Assembly: GCA_018457335.1 (NCBI GenBank) | Contig: JAGYHI010000040.1 | Span: 1 to 7,259, forward strand | Source of the DNA: Candidatus Altimarinota bacterium | GTDB taxonomy: Bacteria > Patescibacteria > JAEDAM01 > BD1-5 > UBA2023 | Direction: 5' to 3' | Length of the DNA: 7,259 nucleotides | In this document: positions 1-7,259 of the stretch, one piece after another | Layout of the letters: every line of letters starts with the position of its first letter | How positions within the stretch are numbered: the first letter of the stretch is position 1 | Notes under the pieces: model-generated | Database searches by the model: none | Seen by the model: only the letters and a program-made list of their open reading frames with translations | Told to the model about the DNA's origin: nothing | Position numbers and translations under genes: made by a program

Positions 1-187
1 GTTTGAGGGCACTGCTTTTATCGTCAAAATCTTCTGTGTATACCAGACTGACTGGGCGGCGGGCTCGTGTGTATTTTGCGCCACCTACGATTTCTCCATT
101 GTGCTTTTTTATGCGATTTTCAAGGTTATTTGTGATGCCGGTGTAGAGCGTGTCATCGGCACATTTTAGGATGTAGAGTTGATACAT
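1..187 (-). CDS. GIY-YIG domain protein (YhbQ/UPF0213-like), 3' end outside window
   Basis: The first 62 residues of a protein that runs off the left edge. It starts at ATG 185-187 (MYQLYILKCADDTLYTG). The LYIL...LYTG pair matches the two halves of the GIY-YIG motif. It is followed by the N-x-x-x-R-x-x-x-H segment (NLENRIKKHN) and a GAKYTRARRP stretch, which are characteristic of the small stand-alone YhbQ/UPF0213 family of about 80-100 aa. Members are predicted single-domain nucleases, possibly acting on branched or damaged DNA; the physiological substrate is unknown. It begins 11 bases after the stop of the HAD-like gene on the same strand, so the two are probably co-transcribed. No UGA occurs in the visible part. 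No Shine-Dalgarno motif precedes the ATG. The catalytic Glu expected further on lies outside the window. Confidence 0.85.
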   Translation of the reverse strand, partial: MYQLYILKCADDTLYTGITNNLENRIKKHNGEIVGGAKYTRARRPVSLVYTEDFDDKSSALK

Positions 188-198
188 AATGAAGAAAA

Positions 199-1163
199 TT
201 ATACGACGGCGATGCGGATTTTCCAGACATCATATGATCCTTGTTTTTCTTGGATTTTTTCACAATAAATTTTTTCGTTTGCATTAGCTATGGCTCTGTC
301 GATATTTTTCATAAACTTTTCTTCTCCGGTATAGTAGAGTCGTATTTTATAGTTTGCAGGGATTTTTCCTTTTTCAAATTTTTTAGCCAGAAAGTTGATC
401 ATTTCAATAATATTTTCAGCATCATCATCACTAAAACCGATAGCGTACGGCAACTTTTTTGCTCATTTTTTGGTCCAATCTGTGTGATGCGAAAGGATGA
501 AAGGGAGGATTTTTTTATATATTTTTCGAGCATGATGGCTTTTTTTGTTTCGATTTTCTCATTATTGTTGACATTTTGCATTTTCATATCGTGGCGATTT
601 GAGACGAGAATATACGACAAAACAAATTGAAAATAATAATCCAAAACTTCTCGTTTTTTCTTGTTCTCAAGATTGAAATTATTTCTGATATTTTGCATTT
701 GCTGTGTTTTTTCTTCTTCAGAGAGCATTTTTTCATTGATAAGTCTGATGACTCGCTCAAAATTTCCGGTTTCGTGTCCTCTGGCAGTCAAGATTGCGGC
801 TGGTCGTCACGGTATCAAAAATTCATTTTTAAAATATTCCATACTGGGTGAGAGTTCTCATTTTTCTATCGCATGGAGCGTGTCATTGAGAAGGATATCT
901 GGGCCAGCATGATTAGTGTTATACACTGAAAAATCACGCAAATTTTCAAAGTGCGAATCGAAGTATTTTGGAAAGTCATATGTATCAGTGTTTTCGTATT
1001 TTTGGCGATTATTTTCATATTCTACCATGCCTACATATTCGTACTCCTCATTTTGTTTATTCCAAAATTTTAGTTTTGAATTTGGGTGTAAAATATTTCC
1101 ATCAAAGTCAAAAATTCCCACAGAAATTCGCCCTTTCGCATTAAAAAATGTTGAATGATTCAT
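199..1163 (-). CDS. HAD-superfamily hydrolase-like protein, UGA-recoded, with a -1 frameshift
   Basis: A phosphatase-like HAD protein of about 321 aa once two oddities are allowed. First, two in-frame TGA codons (858-860 and 807-809, residues 102 and 119) must be read as Gly; they link the N-terminal part to the middle part. Second, the middle part (frame of 1163) must shift by -1 near 455-471 into the frame that ends at TAA 199-201. Motif I is GIFDFDGN (Asp19 and Asp21, the expected nucleophile and acid/base). ILTARG around residues 124-129 fits motif II (Thr126). GFSDDDAENI, after the shift at 421-429 for the Asp triplet, fits the acidic motif IV. Because motif IV lies beyond the shift, both frames are needed for a complete active site. 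The shift region has two A6 runs on the coding strand. It could be a homopolymer sequencing error, a real lesion or programmed slippage. The substrate is unknown. It heads a likely two-gene unit with the GIY-YIG gene. Confidence 0.75.
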
Positions 1164-1188
1164 ATTGGAAAAATATATAATTATTTAT

Positions 1189-1216
1189 AAGATAGTGTGA
1201 TATTGTTTTTTTGCAA
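1189..1216 (-). promoter_or_regulatory. possible promoter of the HAD/GIY-YIG unit
   Basis: On the minus strand TTGCAA (1211-1216) is followed after 16 bases by TATCTT (1189-1194), giving a short leader to the ATG at 1163. The -10 match is only moderate, and the surrounding AT-richness makes chance matches likely. The position between the upstream gene's terminator and this start supports a promoter somewhere here. Confidence 0.35.
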
Positions 1217-1227
1217 GATTTTTTTCA

Positions 1228-1261
1228 AAAAACACTCTATTGATTTCGATAGAGTGTTTTT
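1228..1261 (-). terminator. rho-independent terminator of the NTR/Kazal gene
   Basis: A perfect 13-bp stem (1228-1240 with 1249-1261, core ACACTCTAT / ATAGAGTGT) with an 8-base loop. Because the stem ends in A5/T5, the T tract is present on the minus strand at the 3' side. It lies 14 bases beyond the TAA of the NTR/Kazal gene and separates it from the HAD gene. Confidence 0.8.
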
Positions 1262-1275
1262 CTTTGGCAGTTTTC

Positions 1276-2550
1276 TTATTTTTGTATTGCTTCAAGACTT
1301 GCTTTTATATAAGAAAGTATATTAATAAGTGTTTCTTGATTTTGATTTGACCCATTGAGATTCACTTTATTTCGTATATGAGTAAGGCGTTTCCCAAGAT
1401 TTTCAATGACGATTTTATGAAACTCTCCTCGAAGACTCTCTGATATTTTTTCAAGTCGCTCCTTGTATTTTTTGATAAAGTCTTTCGCAAGTTTGAGATT
1501 TTTTGTTGAAAGCATTTTTTCTAAATCTTCAATTTTTTCTTCTTGATCGAGACATTTCCATTCTGGAGCAAAGTCTTCTGGATATCACATAAGAGTTGTC
1601 GCTTCTAGATTTTTACCAAAAAATGTATTCACTCCGTCGGTTGCAGTTTTACAATTTGGATTTGCTTTGAGGAGTTCTTCTTTGGTTTTGTAACTTTTAC
1701 ATTCACCTTTGTGAATAACTTTTACTTTTGAAGCGTCTGCACTACAGGTATTTCCATAGGTTCGTCCGTCGGATCCACAAACAGGTTCATAATTGGCAGG
1801 ACAAGCTTTTGGTTCTTCTCGTTCCGAACAAGTATATTCGTACTCAAAATCCGGTCCACAAGCTCTGAGAGTTGAGACAACATTTCCTCCATTAAATGAA
1901 AATCCATTACAACCATCAGTCCAAGAGAGGCATTGTCCAGGCTTTGCATTCATCATCTCTTTTTCAGTTTTGTAGGCTTTTTCTTTTTTATCAAGACATT
2001 TCCATACTGGAATAAAATTGTCAGGAGTTCACATGAGTGTAGTTGCTTCTAGATCTTTTCCAAAATGTGTATTGACGCCATCAGTTGCTGTTGTACAATT
2101 TGGTTCTGCTTTTAAGAGTTCTTCTTTGGTTTTGTAGGTCTTTGAGGCGTTTGTATCGAGTCAAAATGCTTGTAAATCTTTCTGAGCATTTTCAAGTTTT
2201 GCAGTTCGTGAGCAGAGTGATACGGTTTCATTTGTGTCTTCTTTATATTTATTTGTGTAGACAATATAATCTTCTCCGTCTACAAAATTAAATCCACAGG
2301 CAGCAGAATTAGAAGCGGTTTTTATTGTTTTAAAATCAGTTACTTCTCATTTAATCGTATCTTTTACTGCAAAAATTACTTCATTTTTTCCGTTGACTGT
2401 ATCTACGATTTTTACTTTCCCAGTGAAGACGCTTGCAGATTTATTCATTTCTTCTTCTGGGGCTGCAGGTTGCATACAACTACAGGCAAAACTGGTTTGA
2501 GTGCTCAAAGTGAGTGCTAAAATACCAATTGGCAAAAGGATTTTTTTCAT
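1276..2550 (-). CDS. secreted multi-domain protein: TIMP/NTR-like domain, Cys repeats and Kazal-type inhibitor domain
   Basis: A 424-aa protein, intact only if four TGA codons (residues 68, 130, 174, 322) are Gly; it ends at TAA 1276-1278. Residues 1-22 form a signal peptide ending Ser-Phe-Ala, so the mature protein begins Cys23-Ser-Cys25. This is the hallmark N-terminus of TIMP-type NTR domains, followed by VFTGKVKIV, a second Cys pair and an ITxAVKD-like strand pattern up to about residue 125. Three related segments with YKT-(E/K)-rich starts follow: 139-191, 193-243 and 287-339. A Kazal domain at about 250-284 shows PVCGSDGRTYGNTC with Cys250, 258, 269 and 284; the C1-C5 pair of six-cysteine Kazals is absent, as is common in bacterial versions. 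By Kazal geometry the P1 residue would be Ala252. Residues 340-424 are charged and helical. The likely role is inhibition of extracellular proteases; targets are unknown and the NTR assignment is by pattern only. Confidence 0.85.
1534..1692 (-). repeat. Cys-repeat copy R3 within the NTR/Kazal gene
   Basis: Codes residues 287-339 (YKTKEELLKANPNC ... ATTLMGYP ... WKCLDQEEK). It is nearly identical in protein and closely similar in DNA to the copy at 1978-2136. Its two cysteines (300 and 333) probably pair. The copy lies directly after the Kazal domain. Confidence 0.85.
1978..2136 (-). repeat. Cys-repeat copy R1 within the NTR/Kazal gene
   Basis: Codes residues 139-191 (YKTKEELLKAEPNC ... ATTLMGTP ... 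WKCLDKKEK), with Cys152 and Cys185. Each copy carries its in-frame TGA (Gly174 and Gly322) at the same position, so the recoded codon was either present before duplication or conserved after it. A diverged third copy (residues 193-243, YKTEKEMMNAKPGQC ... YTC) follows immediately. Confidence 0.85.
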
Positions 2551-2597
2551 AAAATGAAAATAAAAAATAAATTTTTGTATTGATTGATACGCTGGAT

Positions 2598-2625
2598 ATT
2601 ATATCATAATTTTTTAAAAATTCAA
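2598..2625 (-). promoter_or_regulatory. promoter of the NTR/Kazal gene
   Basis: On the minus strand TTGAAT (2620-2625) is followed after a 16-base spacer by a perfect TATAAT (2598-2603). It predicts a leader of about 40 bases before the ATG at 2550. This is a good sigma-70-type match in the divergent intergenic region. Confidence 0.6.
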
Positions 2626-2720
2626 GATTTTTTGTGTGAATTTTGCGTGATTTTTTATTTTTATTTTTTCCTTTTAATATCAATAAAAGTAAAGATTTTT
2701 TTAGGACAAATATTTTTTCT

Positions 2721-2748
2721 TTGAAAAAAGAACATTCTTTCATATAAT
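2721..2748 (+). promoter_or_regulatory. promoter of the DUF1287 gene
   Basis: TTGAAA (2721-2726), a 16-base spacer, then a perfect TATAAT (2743-2748). It predicts a start near 2755 and a leader of about 18 bases before ATG 2773. It is divergent from the promoter at 2598-2625, with about 95 bases between the two -35 boxes. Confidence 0.65.
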
Positions 2749-2772
2749 GAAGTAAAATTAAAAATAATTTCT

Positions 2773-3426
2773 ATGAAATATTTCTCGTTTTTCTTGATAT
2801 TTGTAAGTGTGGTATTTTGATTTCTGTATTTTCAAAAAGATTTCTCACTGCAAAATCCAAGATCTTCTCAAATCGAGAAGATTCAAATTGCTGATACTGC
2901 CACTCAAAAAGCAAAAGAATTTTTCTTGGCTGCTAAAAAACAAATTGGCGTCGTAAAAACCTATGATTTTTCAAATGGATATTATGGAAATGGAGGTTTT
3001 CCGCCTGATGATACAGGGGTTTGTACCGACGTGATTTGGCGAGCGTATCGTGATATTTGACAGGATTTCAAGGCTCAAATTATCGCTCATCACCAGAAAA
3101 ATCCGACGCTTTATTCCAATTTTTGAGACAATAATATTTCCTTTCGTCGCGTCAAAAATATTGATATTTTTTTGAAAAATACTCAAAAATCCCTCATGAC
3201 TCAAATGATTCCAAATAATGAGCAAAATCTCGAAACATGGCAAACTGGAGACATTGTCATCTTTGACCGACTGCCGAGCGGACTGATGCATATCGGGATT
3301 ATTTCAGATATTCGTCGAGCAGACGGTGTGCCGTATATGATTGATAATCACGGTTACGGTACAGATATTCGTATTACTCCTCTCGACTGGCAGAGTAAAA
3401 TTATCGGACACTATCGAGTTTTCTAG
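2773..3426 (+). CDS. membrane-anchored DUF1287-family protein, UGA-recoded
   Basis: A 217-aa protein from ATG 2773 to TAG 3424-3426, with three TGA codons read as Gly (residues 16, 96, 118). Residues 3-21 form one hydrophobic segment (VSVVFGFLYF), a signal anchor or uncleaved signal. Residues 46-217 match DUF1287: YYGNGGFPPDDTGVCTDV with Cys84, WRAYRDIGQD, the RRVKNID stretch, a WQTGDIVIFD strand, HIGIISD with His173, DNHGYG with His193 and the closing IIGHYRVF. Cys84 with His173 resembles the Cys-His arrangement of NlpC/P60-like hydrolases, so a peptidoglycan or other envelope amide substrate is plausible but unproven. Gly96 and Gly118 fall where relatives carry Gly (DxGxD; D-N region). It is likely exported and facing the envelope. 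No terminator is visible before the downstream cold-shock gene. Confidence 0.88.
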
Positions 3427-3499
3427 ACTTTTTTGAAAAAATATAATCCCTTATAGAAGGGGACAAAGTGGGAAGATGAAAATTTTCTCAAAAAAAGAT

Positions 3500-3545
3500 T
3501 TGCTTATTTGAAATATATTGACATAATAGAGATCCTATTTATTAA
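3500..3545 (+). promoter_or_regulatory. probable promoter region and leader of the cold-shock gene
   Basis: Two overlapping candidates: TTGACA (3518-3523), 16 bases, TATTAA (3540-3545); or TTGCTT (3500-3505), 16 bases, CATAAT (3522-3527). The first has the perfect -35 but would leave a leader of only a few bases; the second gives about 24. A small hairpin further up (CCCTT 3448-3452 with AAGGG 3457-3461) lies behind a TATAAT at 3442-3447, so a longer structured leader, as in many cold-shock mRNAs, is also possible. The sequence alone does not choose between them. Confidence 0.4.
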
Positions 3546-3557
3546 TTTTTTTAGAGT

Positions 3558-3752
3558 ATGAGTACAGGTACAGTTAAATTTTTTAACGACGAAAAAGGTT
3601 TCGGTTTTATTAAAGATGCAGATGGACAAGAGTATTTCGTTCACATTACAAATGTAGAAGGTGATGAAATCAAAGAAAATGATACTGTTGAATTTGAAGT
3701 CAAAGAGACAGATCGAGGACTCAGTGCAGTCAATGTAAGTCTTGCTGAATAA
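3558..3752 (+). CDS. csp: CspA-family cold-shock protein
   Basis: A complete 64-aa single cold-shock domain, a cytoplasmic RNA/ssDNA chaperone that melts mRNA structure. The start MSTGTVKFFNDEKGFGFI has RNP1 as KGFGFI (residues 13-18), and RNP2 is YFVHI (26-30). The usual KWFN is KFFN, and the usual FVHxS has Ile. The domain ends VNVSLAE with TAA. The length is normal for the family (65-70 aa). It is the only complete gene here without a UGA codon; its visible Gly codons are GGN, which could reflect high expression. No Shine-Dalgarno motif precedes the ATG. A strong terminator follows 23 bases after the stop. Confidence 0.95.
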   Translation: MSTGTVKFFNDEKGFGFIKDADGQEYFVHITNVEGDEIKENDTVEFEVKETDRGLSAVNVSLAE

Positions 3753-3775
3753 ACAAATTCAGAAAAACATCTTGT

Positions 3776-3804
3776 AAAAACCGCTCGAATTCGAGCGGTT
3801 TTTT
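3776..3804 (+). terminator. strong, probably bidirectional terminator after the cold-shock gene
   Basis: A perfect 12-bp stem (3776-3787 with 3792-3803, core CCGCTCG / CGAGCGG) with an AATT loop, then a T-rich tail. A5 on the left side gives a T tract on the minus strand too, so it may also stop transcripts arriving from the convergent recombinase gene at 3900. Confidence 0.9.
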
Positions 3805-3899
3805 ATTTTTGGTTTCTTTTAAAAATCACTATTTTACAAATCTACTAAGTATACTCAATATAGTATATTTATACTGGTGTAAGTATTTTTAAAAATCAT

Positions 3900-4919
3900 T
3901 TAAGAATTAAAGAATTTTTTGTGAGCCTCTCTGAGTTTTGGGTTCGTGATATGAGTGTAGACTTGCGTCGTCGTGATAGATGCATGTCCGAGAAGTTCTT
4001 GGATGATTCTGATGTCAGCGCCATTTGAGAGCAGGGTAGTGGCGAAACTATGACGAAGCGTGTGAGCGTGGATATTTTTGATGATCCCCGCCTTGAGTCC
4101 GTAGGATTTTATCATATTGGTGATAAAGAAGCGCGAAAGTCGGAGTTTATCATTGGTATTGTCGATGTTTTCCATTTTGAGATTGTGTCGGATGAAGAGG
4201 GGAGCGAATTCATCTTCTCGGTCTTGAAGATAGTGTTCGATGGCGTATCGAGCCTCACTTGTGAGGTAGACGACTCGGAGTTTTCCTCATTTTCCGCGCA
4301 CTCAAAACTCCATAGTTTCGAGATTGATATCATCGCGGTCGAGTTTTGTAAGTTCTGAGATTCGCAGTCCAGTTGCATAGATACACGCACAAATTGCAAA
4401 ATCCCGCTTACCGATCAAAGTATCACGCGGAATAATCTCAAAAAATCGCTTGATTTCTTCGAGTGTTAAAAAAGTCACTTCGCGGTCGGGTGCTTTCATA
4501 AGGTCAAGGCTGGTCGGATCGACACACTCAATTTGCTCTTTTTTTAGATATTTCAGCCAACTTCGCATCGTGACGATATGAGCATTGACGGTCTTTATCG
4601 AGCGTCCGCTGTCTGAGAGTGAGAGTCGCCACTCATCAAAATCCTCTTTTTTGATTTCTTCGATTCTTGGGGTCGAAAATTGCTTTGATATCAGGAGGAG
4701 GGGAGAGTGCCACGGTTTTTTCTGGTCCTGGATTTCAGGTGGGAGAAAATCTTTATAGTTGTATTTTTCGAGTTCTTTACGAGTCGGCTCATCGACAATC
4801 CACAAAATAAACCGCCAAATATGAAAAGCATACTGTTCTTGCGTTTTACGACTGCGACCCTTGTGGAGCCGGAGATAGATGAGAAATTGTGAAAAAGCGA
4901 TGTAGAGTGACATTTGCAT
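3900..4919 (-). CDS. Xer-family tyrosine recombinase (XerC/XerD/XerH-like), UGA-recoded
   Basis: A 339-aa recombinase from ATG 4919 (ATG 4913 is a possible alternative) to TAA 3900-3902. Two TGA codons (residues 206 and 211) are read as Gly; the second lies in the conserved beta-hairpin RGKGGKLR that carries the catalytic Lys. The N-terminal SAM-like DNA-binding domain spans about 1-150 ([31 protein letters not shown]). Catalytic residues are complete: Arg186 (ATGLRISEL), Lys210/213, His286 and Arg289 (HTLRHSFAT), His312 (LGHASITTT) and the Tyr321 nucleophile (QVYTH). At 339 aa it is longer than XerC/XerD (about 300) and nearer to single-recombinase types XerS/XerH. It is expected to cut and rejoin DNA at a dif-type site; a matching palindrome lies 225 bases upstream. 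A role in integrating mobile DNA cannot be excluded, but no other mobile-element gene is visible. Confidence 0.95.
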
Positions 4920-5144
4920 GATTGATTTAAAAAATCGATTTTTATTTCAAAGAGAGAATTAGGAGGGAAGAGGGTATTTCAGTTTACTGTTTAGGCTCTA
5001 TTTATTTTGAGAAGCCATTATTTGCAAAAAATAAATCAAAGTATTTTATTTTCCAGTAAAGAAAATTATTTTTTGAGCAAATTTTAGGGAAGTGAGTTTG
5101 ACTTTTTTCTGATTTCTATGTCTTCTTATAAGAATATAGATAAT

Positions 5145-5172
5145 ACTTCACATAATATAACTTATGTGAAGT
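5145..5172 (+). other. dif-like Xer recombination site
   Basis: The 28 bases divide as ACTTCACATAA, spacer TATAAC, TTATGTGAAGT: two perfectly inverted 11-bp arms around a 6-bp spacer, the exact 11-6-11 layout of bacterial dif sites. CATAA at the inner left and TTATGT at the inner right match the E. coli dif inner arms, recalled from memory. The inversion extends perfectly to 16 bp per arm (5140-5155 and 5162-5177). It lies 225 bases upstream of the recombinase start. There is no T tract, which argues against a terminator. Confidence 0.65.
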
Positions 5173-5566
5173 ATTATAGTGAAAAGTATGAAAATGCAAA
5201 CTTTTGTATGAAAAATATGACTTTTTTCCTTGACTTTTTATATTTTTATTTGGTTTTTGTGAAAATGTTTTTTTATTTTTGTTTGCTTTGTAATTTTATT
5301 TTGTTTTTACTTTCATTATTCTTCTTATCCTATGTATAAAAAATAGGAAATAAATTTTGTAATACTACAATTTTTCTCTGAAAAAACAGGCCCTTGTTTC
5401 ATTTTTTGCGACTCATAATACCTAGAAAGTCTTTTCTCGCGTATTTTTATAAACCTGATAGGTATCTTATTTCTATAGGTATATTAGATTTTCTTAGCAA
5501 ATTTGCAAATAACAATATTCACTTATATATTGATTTCACATAAATATTCATTTTTTTAATTTAGTT

Positions 5567-5589
5567 ATTATGAGAATTATTCTCATAAT
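5567..5589. promoter_or_regulatory. Fur-family-type operator palindrome
   Basis: A perfect 23-bp palindrome with one central base. Its core, TGAGAAT, T, ATTCTCA (5571-5585), has the 7-1-7 arrangement and sequence type of Fur boxes. No gene starts close by on either strand: the recombinase start is about 650 bases away and the pilin terminator lies in between on the other side. The regulated transcript is unidentified. Confidence 0.45.
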
Positions 5590-5689
5590 CATCTTTAATG
5601 ATGAATTAGTAATATTTTTCTAAAACATTTGTTCCTAGTTTCAATAAAAATATTGACAAATCTTAAAAAATATCAAAAAATATACAAAA

Positions 5690-5717
5690 AAGCGGAAAAA
5701 TCACTAGTTTTCCGCTT
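5690..5717 (-). terminator. rho-independent terminator of the pilin gene
   Basis: A perfect 10-bp stem (AAGCGGAAAA 5690-5699 with TTTTCCGCTT 5708-5717) and an 8-base loop. On the minus strand it is followed by T6 and further T runs. It lies 25 bases past the pilin TAA. Confidence 0.85.
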
Positions 5718-5742
5718 AGGTAAGGTAAAAAATCAAGATTTT

Positions 5743-6366
5743 TTATGGTTTTTGAGGTTTTATCGGCTTTCGATATGTCGTGATGATTCCAGAGACTTTA
5801 TCACCGACAATATACCTTTTAAAAACTTCGTATTCGACTGTAATCATAAAACTCCTTAAATCTTCCTCTACTTTATTCCCTGTTATAAGCATATCTCCAT
5901 TGATTCAAAAATTTAGTGTGAGTTTTTTGTTTTCTTGCCAATTGTGTCAACCTGAAAGTTTATCATCAGTTGTAATTCGTCCACTTGATGTTTCGATTTT
6001 TGCTATTTTATATCCTCGATTCCCTTCTAAAAATGGAGATTCTAGTTTTTTGCCATCTTTTTCTGCATCAGCTCATTGTGGTTTATATTTTGAAATAATG
6101 CTTCCACTGGAAATAATTACTGTTTGCTGTGTGTTTGGAATCATTTTTTTATCTGTCGTACCACTCCAGCTTCCGCGACCAATGACCATATCTTGTTTTG
6201 CACGCGTGATAGTATCTTCGACGAGTTCTGCGAATCGTATCGCTCGTTGTTGTTTAGTATTCTGAGAATTGACGAGACTCATCGCTGCAAGCACAAGAAT
6301 CCCAATAATTGCGATGACAATCATAAGCTCGACGAGTGTGAAGGCTCTGTAAGATTTTAAATGCAT
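5743..6366 (-). CDS. type IV pilin-like protein (prepilin N-terminal domain), UGA-recoded
   Basis: A 207-aa pilin-like protein from ATG 6364-6366 to TAA 5743-5745, with three TGA codons read as Gly (residues 98, 140, 154). The start MHLKSYRA then FTLVELMIVIAIIG is a class III prepilin leader. An 8-residue basic leader is cut before Phe9 by prepilin peptidase, Glu13 is the conserved mature Glu5, and residues 10-29 are the hydrophobic assembly helix. The residue before the cut is Ala instead of the usual Gly. The C-terminal globular part (LVNSQNTKQQRAIRFAE, SGGHNWQENKK, ITVEYEVFKRY) is beta-rich by appearance, lacks a disulfide pair, and resembles a minor pilin or pseudopilin more than a known major pilin. 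The gene stands alone between its own promoter and terminator, so the assembly ATPase, platform protein and peptidase must be encoded elsewhere. It likely functions in surface attachment or DNA uptake. Confidence 0.88.
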
Positions 6367-6389
6367 ATTTTTATAAAAATTATGGCTCT

Positions 6390-6417
6390 ATAATATAAAA
6401 AAACTAAAAAAATACAA
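6390..6417 (-). promoter_or_regulatory. probable promoter of the pilin gene
   Basis: On the minus strand TTGTAT (6412-6417), 16 bases, TATTAT (6390-6395), predicting a leader of about 17 bases before ATG 6366. The -35 box lies inside the left arm of the upstream gene's terminator hairpin. Confidence 0.45.
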
Positions 6418-6440
6418 GGCATTTTTCCTTGTATTTTTTT
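6406..6440 (-). terminator. terminator of the SLH surface-protein gene
   Basis: A perfect 14-bp stem (6406-6419 with 6427-6440, core ATACAAGG / CCTTGTAT) with a 7-base CATTTTT loop. A7 on the left side supplies a T7 tract on the minus strand. It lies 14 bases past the TAA at 6454. Confidence 0.85.
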
Positions 6441-6453
6441 GTAGACTTATATT

Positions 6454-7259
6454 TTACCATTGGATATTATCCCAAGTGCTTCACATATTGACAAGAACTT
6501 TGATAGTCTCGGCAATAGTGATATAACTCGTAGGCTCAAAAACTCTTACTTCTTGATTTTCTGGCTGTCCGTCCCATGTCTTTCTTCCGTGAAGAAGACA
6601 GAGTTCGTATGCTTTTTCAATATGAGGAGCAAAATCACTCTGAGGATTTACATCAGCAAATCTGTTCATTTGTGCTGGTTTATCTTTGAGTTGAGAGATG
6701 GTAATATTATTTAAAAATCTTTTTCGTAGATATTCTACAAAGACTTTTGCTGCAACTTGTCTCTCTACTTTGCTATTCATATTCTGCTTAAGAGTCGAGA
6801 GAAGGTTTGTAATACTTTTGTCTCAGGTTGGTACTTTTTTTAAGAGGGTTTCATATCTCGTAAGAACGCGACCAAACTGCCCGAAAGTAATATCTTGATG
6901 TACATATTCATCTGTGGTGTTTGATATGAAAAACTTTCTATAAAGGGCTCGTTTTTTGAGGTCTTCAAGATTTTTGATAAGACTATCGCATTGTATGCTA
7001 AAATTTTTATTTCCTCAATTTTGCATTGCATTTATACCAAGTGTATCATTCCAAGTCTTCTCTAAAATGCTTCGTTCTGCTTGATTTACACTATATCCAC
7101 CACCATGACCAGAAGTTGTTTGTATTTTTTCTGTTTTTGGTGCATTTGGTTTTTTTGGAGTTGGATTTTCCGGTTCCGGTTCTGTTGTTCCTGTGTTCGT
7201 TTCCGGTTCTGTTGTTCCTGTGTTCGTTTCCGGTTCTGTTGTTCCTGTGTTCGTTTCCG
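6454..7259 (-). CDS. C-terminal part of a surface protein with Thr/Glu/Pro repeats and an SLH-like domain, 5' end outside window
   Basis: The last 267 residues of a larger protein, ending at TAA 6454-6456. Three TGA codons (7015-7017, 6823-6825, 6481-6483) are read as Gly. Visible order: perfect tandem ETNTGTTEP repeats, a Pro/Lys linker (ENPTPKKPNAPKTEK), a Gly-rich SGHGGGYSVN stretch, a helical segment of about 130 residues, then a C-terminal S-layer homology-like domain (6484-6660). The SLH pattern is RFADVNPQSDFAPHIEKAY, then LCLLHGR, a gap, and VFEPTSYITIAETIKVLVNM, matching the FxDV...I..A...GI..G...F.P...IT.AE layout. SLH domains bind secondary cell-wall polymers or anchor surface layers; here it would hold the protein to the envelope while the repeat stalk projects outward. 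Only one SLH unit is visible, whereas three are typical. The recoded Gly follows directly after the domain. An adhesin role is inference. Confidence 0.8.
7174..7259 (-). repeat. 27-bp tandem repeat coding ETNTGTTEP
   Basis: Three perfect 27-bp units (7174-7200, 7201-7227, 7228-7254) and the start of a fourth at the window edge. They are exact multiples of three and stay in frame inside the surface-protein gene. Lack of any base change between units suggests recent expansion or ongoing copy-number change. The array continues beyond the window. Confidence 0.95.

Follow-up and report, generated by a model that had tools for sequence, protein, structure and literature searches.

Gene content of the window

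The stretch of DNA analysed here, called the window throughout, is 7,259 nt long, and its reading frames were listed under translation tables 25 and 11. Eight genes were recognisable, together with one dif-like site. Six of the eight genes carry in-frame TGA codons, 18 in total, which agrees with the first-pass annotation of this DNA (six genes, at least 17 codons). The features are as follows, with the number of in-frame TGA codons given for each gene.

2 to 187, minus strand: GIY-YIG nuclease-domain gene (PF01541, E 8.9e-14), truncated by the window start; no TGA
199 to 1163, minus strand: gene of unknown family in two pieces (521 to 1163 and 199 to 516) with a frameshift near 520; three TGA across the two frames; TAA end
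1276 to 2550, minus strand: Kazal-domain protein with a signal-like N-terminus (PF00050, E 6.6e-10); four TGA; TAA end
2773 to 3426, plus strand: DUF1287 protein (PF06940, E 3e-35); three TGA, at residues 16, 96 and 118; TAG end
3558 to 3752, plus strand: cold-shock domain protein (PF00313, E 1.4e-19); no TGA; TAA end
3900 to 4919, minus strand: Xer-type tyrosine recombinase (PF00589, E 2.9e-37); two TGA, at residues 206 and 211; TAA end
4287 to 4289, minus strand: TGA codon of recombinase residue 211 within RGKGGK, its place computed from the gene start at 4919
5145 to 5172, no strand: dif-like site, an 11+6+11 perfect inverted repeat with 16-nt arms at 5140 to 5155 and 5162 to 5177
5743 to 6366, minus strand: type IV pilin-like protein with an N-terminal methylation motif (PF07963, E 6.1e-8); three TGA; TAA end
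6454 to 7257, minus strand: gene truncated by the window end, with 27-nt tandem repeats near its visible start; three TGA; TAA end

The seven visible gene ends comprised six TAA and one TAG (the end of the 199-1163 gene being taken in its second frame) and none was TGA, just as had been described before. The gene at 199 to 1163 is not a single open frame: its reading frame changes near 520, next to seven consecutive T. Neither piece of this gene had a Pfam match, and both matched one and the same open frame of a relative (locus L145, positions 1474 to 2379). The frameshift is either a sequencing error or the sign of a broken gene.

Several of the genes have counterparts in the genomes of relatives. 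The Kazal-domain protein matched genome G001 with TGA inside the match, and the gene at 6454 to 7257 gave three longer matches to the same genome (43-53% identity, TGA inside) and one short one. A 27-nt tandem repeat in this last gene, present in 3.2 identical copies at 7174 to 7259, runs past the end of the window. The DUF1287 protein was found in none of five Gracilibacteria genomes, a search that had no positive control and is uninformative on origin; other contigs do encode DUF1287 relatives, with identities of up to 67%. A structure search with this protein returned a single match at E 0.97, which was not used.

The source organism lies among the Gracilibacteria

The five best recombinase loci were all titled Candidatus Gracilibacteria. 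The nearest of them, L001, belongs to the MAG DOLZORAL124_35_19 and encodes a recombinase 88% identical to that of the window; the pilin-like protein is a neighbour there too (60% identical), and window positions 3901 to 6378 are collinear with L001 at 70% DNA identity. Sequence comparison places the source organism within the Gracilibacteria clade, on the recombinase gene rather than on a species tree. Gracilibacteria of the dolphin mouth have been described (PMC8406219), and from its name this MAG is probably one of them.

TGA behaves as a sense codon

The coding frame was compared with the two shifted frames over the same 1,836 codons, taken from seven genes with the GIY-YIG gene excluded and the final codon of each piece dropped. 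In frame there were 18 TGA, no TAA and no TAG, compared with 34, 28 and 18 in one shifted frame and 79, 54 and 9 in the other, and therefore TAA and TAG are excluded from the coding frame and TGA is not. Table 11 broke the TGA-bearing genes into fragments, the recombinase for example into pieces of 205 and 91 aa, as the first-pass annotation had said of the standard code. Coding density under tables 4 and 25, proposed at that stage as a way to separate the two codes, proved uninformative because both tables open identical frames; conserved columns, tRNA and release factors must therefore decide between them.

Conserved columns favour glycine over tryptophan

We examined the residues that stand opposite the TGA codons in homologous proteins. 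For the recombinase, 78 loci were collected. Six had Gracilibacteria titles and were treated separately; the other 72 were mostly from other Patescibacteria and Bacillota, with one titled Mycoplasma. Residue 211 was Gly in all 72, encoded by all four GGN codons, and was TGA in each of the five Gracilibacteria loci covering the site; this result was unchanged when TGA, CGA and CGG were masked. The claim that this position indicates glycine is upheld. Residue 206 was Gly in only 3 of the 72 loci and says little.

The DUF1287 columns, scored in 86 homologues with the protein of the window itself excluded, gave a mixed picture. Residue 96, in the motif DIGQD, was Gly in 57, Trp in 12 and Asn in 8. 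Residue 118, in NFGDNN, was Pro in 42 and Gly in only 6, so of the two DUF1287 glycines put forward earlier the first stands and the second, which is not at a conserved Gly column, was rejected as evidence. Residue 16 was Leu in 16 and Gly in 14 homologues; like recombinase 206 and DUF1287 118, it is a TGA site at a column where Gly is not conserved. In 25 of the 86 homologues Trp occupied at least one of five conserved Gly columns, and 11 of the 12 Trp residues at position 96 belonged to these 25 entries; in the remaining 61 homologues residue 96 was Gly in 49 and Trp in one, the split into 25 and 61 having been made post hoc, after the columns had been seen. By their sequences, the 25 Trp-bearing entries are apparently UGA genes that were mistranslated with table 4 in the database. 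At the informative TGA columns (recombinase 211 and DUF1287 96) Gly was favoured over Trp, and TGG codons stood at Trp columns, in keeping with the earlier statement that normal TGG codons still serve for Trp.

A second comparison used TGA masked on both sides and five gene pieces as input, leaving aside the DUF1287, cold-shock and GIY-YIG genes and the 3' piece of the 199-1163 gene. Where a TGA of a relative stood opposite a residue other than TGA in the window, that residue was Gly in 24 of 44 pairs (two Kazal rows overlap on one gene, which double-counts 4 of the 24 Gly pairs and some of the other cells) and Trp in none, the other 20 pairs having residues other than Gly. Counts in which the subject was translated by code 25, a choice that leans to Gly, likewise gave 24 Gly and no Trp. 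TGA codons of the window stood opposite a relative's TGA 12 times, and their 19 pairs with other codons were spread over Ser (4), Ala (3), Leu (3), Gly, Asn and Cys (2 each), and Thr, Asp and Gln (1 each), again with no Trp. Summed tblastn bits under codes 11, 4 and 25 were 6527, 6023 and 5969 (56, 46 and 46 hits). At face value these sums do not favour code 25 but go against it; we gave them no weight because the query was TGA-masked, the hits were split differently and the numbers of hits were unequal.

The codons CGA and CGG were scored in the same way, since both are read as Trp in Absconditabacteria and CGG has a mixed meaning in Gracilibacteria, according to PMC8629427. In the recombinase, CGG 172 stood opposite Arg in 69 of 71 loci, CGA 186 opposite Arg in 71 of 71 and CGA 215 opposite Arg in 72 of 72; the window has only three CGG codons. 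A Trp reading of CGA and CGG was rejected as both codons lie at Arg columns, and thus among these codons UGA alone is reassigned.

Related genomes carry a glycine-type tRNA with anticodon UCA and a single release factor

The decoding apparatus was sought in the genomes of relatives. Fourteen were used, namely those of L001 to L005 and nine from the class of G001 chosen for carrying a dif-like site, along with three control genomes, all outside Gracilibacteria. By pattern, UCA tRNA genes were found at 11 places in six of eight genomes, and ARAGORN accepted four of the 11 places (in G001, G002, G004 and G005), labelling the tRNA as tRNA-SeC from its anticodon. A BLAST search with the 79-base UCA tRNA gene of G001 gave full-length matches in 13 of the 14 relatives' genomes and none in the three controls, one of which had a 28-base partial match only. 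In the 13 genomes this tRNA has G1-C72, C2-G71, G3-C70 and U73, which are Gly identity criteria in the account of PMC8629427. In G003 neither the pattern search nor BLAST revealed a UCA tRNA. The G003 recombinase gene nevertheless carries an in-frame TGA, and an assembly gap is perhaps the cause. The 7,259-nt window itself holds no tRNA-Gly(UCA).

Release factors were identified by PF00472. There was one in each of the 14 relatives' genomes compared with two in each of the three controls; these relatives' genomes may be incomplete, so that the absence of RF2 from any single one of them is not proof. The motif P-x-T, the mark of RF1, was present in the factors of 11 of the 14 genomes, comprising every genome of L001 to L005 and six of the nine added ones, and the search for it returned nothing in the other three. 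Among the release-factor loci aligned, SPF-bearing factors were seen in the controls only. The closest genome combines a single release factor of RF1 type with a UCA-anticodon tRNA of Gly type. On the tRNA-Gly(UCA) and the loss of RF2, which had been proposed as checks on the glycine reading, the evidence comes from relatives only: a positive tRNA search in 13 of 14 genomes and a single release factor in 14 of 14.

Meaning of UGA and competing explanations

Taken with the recombinase 211 column and the masked pairs, the tRNA and RF1 of the relatives support the proposal of the first-pass annotation that UGA is glycine across the window, and we are nearly certain that UGA is read as Gly (table 25) in this window, as a chromosomal piece of Candidatus Gracilibacteria (BD1-5). 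A tRNA-Gly with anticodon UCA would decode UGA as glycine, UGA would no longer terminate translation in the absence of RF2, and RF1 would terminate genes at UAA and UAG. The source genome itself probably carries the same tRNA-Gly(UCA) and lacks RF2. That UGA means glycine in Gracilibacteria and Absconditabacteria, as the earlier annotation stated, is established. Genome analysis predicted it, and proteomics of a BD1-5 bacterium demonstrated it, with 97 peptides that fit the Gly reading alone against 3 unique to Trp (PMC4032931). The present case is correct, not new.

Tryptophan, the meaning of UGA under table 4 as in Mycoplasma, would open the same frames as table 25 and could draw on the 12 DUF1287 homologues with Trp at residue 96. 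However, 11 of those 12 belong to the 25 entries in which other conserved Gly columns also carry Trp, a sign of table 4 translation in the database, while residue 211 is uniformly Gly outside Gracilibacteria, no Trp stood opposite the recombinase TGA codons or opposite TGA in the masked comparison, and the UCA tRNA of the nearest genome bears Gly identity bases; we regard this reading as highly improbable. The code seen here shares with code 4 of Mycoplasma the use of UGA as a sense codon, and differs from it in that the columns indicate Gly and the relatives' UCA tRNA is of Gly type. The likeness is to code 25 of Gracilibacteria BD1-5 and Absconditabacteria SR1, with UGA at a conserved Gly column, genes ending in UAA or UAG, TGG as Trp, and relatives that have a Gly-type UCA tRNA and a single RF1. 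We found no difference from code 25. The change of CGA and CGG to Trp that PMC8629427 gives for Absconditabacteria is absent, these codons being at Arg columns in the window.

Were UGA still a stop, the genes would have to be decaying pseudogenes or the TGA codons sequencing errors. The 199-1163 gene does have a frameshift, but decay would also yield TAA and TAG, neither of which occurs in frame in the 1,836 codons, and the TGA of residue 211 is retained in five of five relatives, which makes this the least credible of the readings and an exceedingly unlikely one. An origin of the contig in a phage or other mobile element with its own code might be suggested by the tyrosine recombinase, and phages of Gracilibacteria have been published (PMC10746230). 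Only two phage-collection records matched, though, both by the cold-shock gene alone and over 1-2% of the window, and a contig from a Gracilibacteria MAG preserves the block of recombinase, site and pilin. Phage origin was rejected on the phage-collection comparison, and we consider a mobile element very unlikely as the explanation of the code.

A candidate Xer/dif module

The recombinase scored 225 bits against the XerD profile, 208 against XerC and 198 against archaeal XerA, all below the cut-offs, and in this respect it differs from all three. From motifs we placed R186, a Lys of GKGGK (K210 or K213), H286, R289, H312 and Y321, which correspond to the catalytic R-K-H-R-H-Y residues of a tyrosine recombinase. 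H286, R289, H312 and Y321 lie after the TGA codons, and a stop at UGA would therefore remove four of them.

The dif-like site, ACTTCACATAA-TATAAC-TTATGTGAAGT, is 28 bp long and lies 225 bp upstream of the recombinase gene, and the 16-nt arms that enclose its centre are perfect. With its two 11-bp arms it resembles a site for chromosome dimer resolution by Xer. Among the 77 loci searched, only L001, L002, L004 and L005 had good dif-like sites, with arms that were exact in the first three and had two changes in L005 and whose first base lay 65 to 391 bases ahead of the recombinase match. A further site, with one change, was on contig C12 of G003 near the contig end, where the overlap with the start of the recombinase contig was exactly 141 bases, which brings to five the Gracilibacteria relatives that conserve the arms. 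The two G003 contigs (start of L003, end of L185) join at the dif-like site in the way that a branch in the assembly graph would produce. Of 145 genomes of the class, an even sample of a larger set, 12 carried a dif-like site at up to three mismatches, in one place each, and a reversed control pattern was found in none. The other 133 had no site at this threshold, and the site is therefore not general in the class at up to three mismatches. Five of the 12 site-bearing genomes had the recombinase orthologue within the 3-kb locus, G003 being the contig-end case, and six had no orthologue in the locus, five of these with a slightly different arm.

Integrase-family genes numbered one each in G001, G002, G003 and G005 and four in G004, and of 17 genomes searched 15 had FtsK gamma, all five close relatives among them. 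On the G005 contig of 534,643 bases, cumulative GC skew reached its maximum at 505,080 and then fell, with the dif-like site at 516,600; this is one contig of one relative, the climb is weak and uneven, and only 18 kb lie past the site. These sequence features suggest, with good though not full confidence, a single-recombinase Xer/dif module in which one Xer protein, probably controlled by FtsK, would act on a symmetric 28-bp dif site and whose catalytic half would need UGA to be read as Gly.

The closeness of site and recombinase gene is shared with XerS/difSL, XerH/difH and archaeal XerA/dif, the linkage being described for XerS and XerH in PMC5357621. A single integrase-family gene in four of the five close relatives is likewise in line with single-recombinase modules, and the four such genes of G004 depart from them. 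The site also differs from difSL, which has an 11-bp centre according to PMC5357621, in being an 11+6+11 perfect palindrome. No dif site of Gracilibacteria or CPR was seen among the literature matches listed, and this is weak evidence of novelty.

Significance

The contig needs annotation under table 25, and the 25 of 86 DUF1287 homologues that are apparently mistranslated indicate that the wrong code does enter public data. The dif-like site, if functional, would help to locate the replication terminus in these bacteria.
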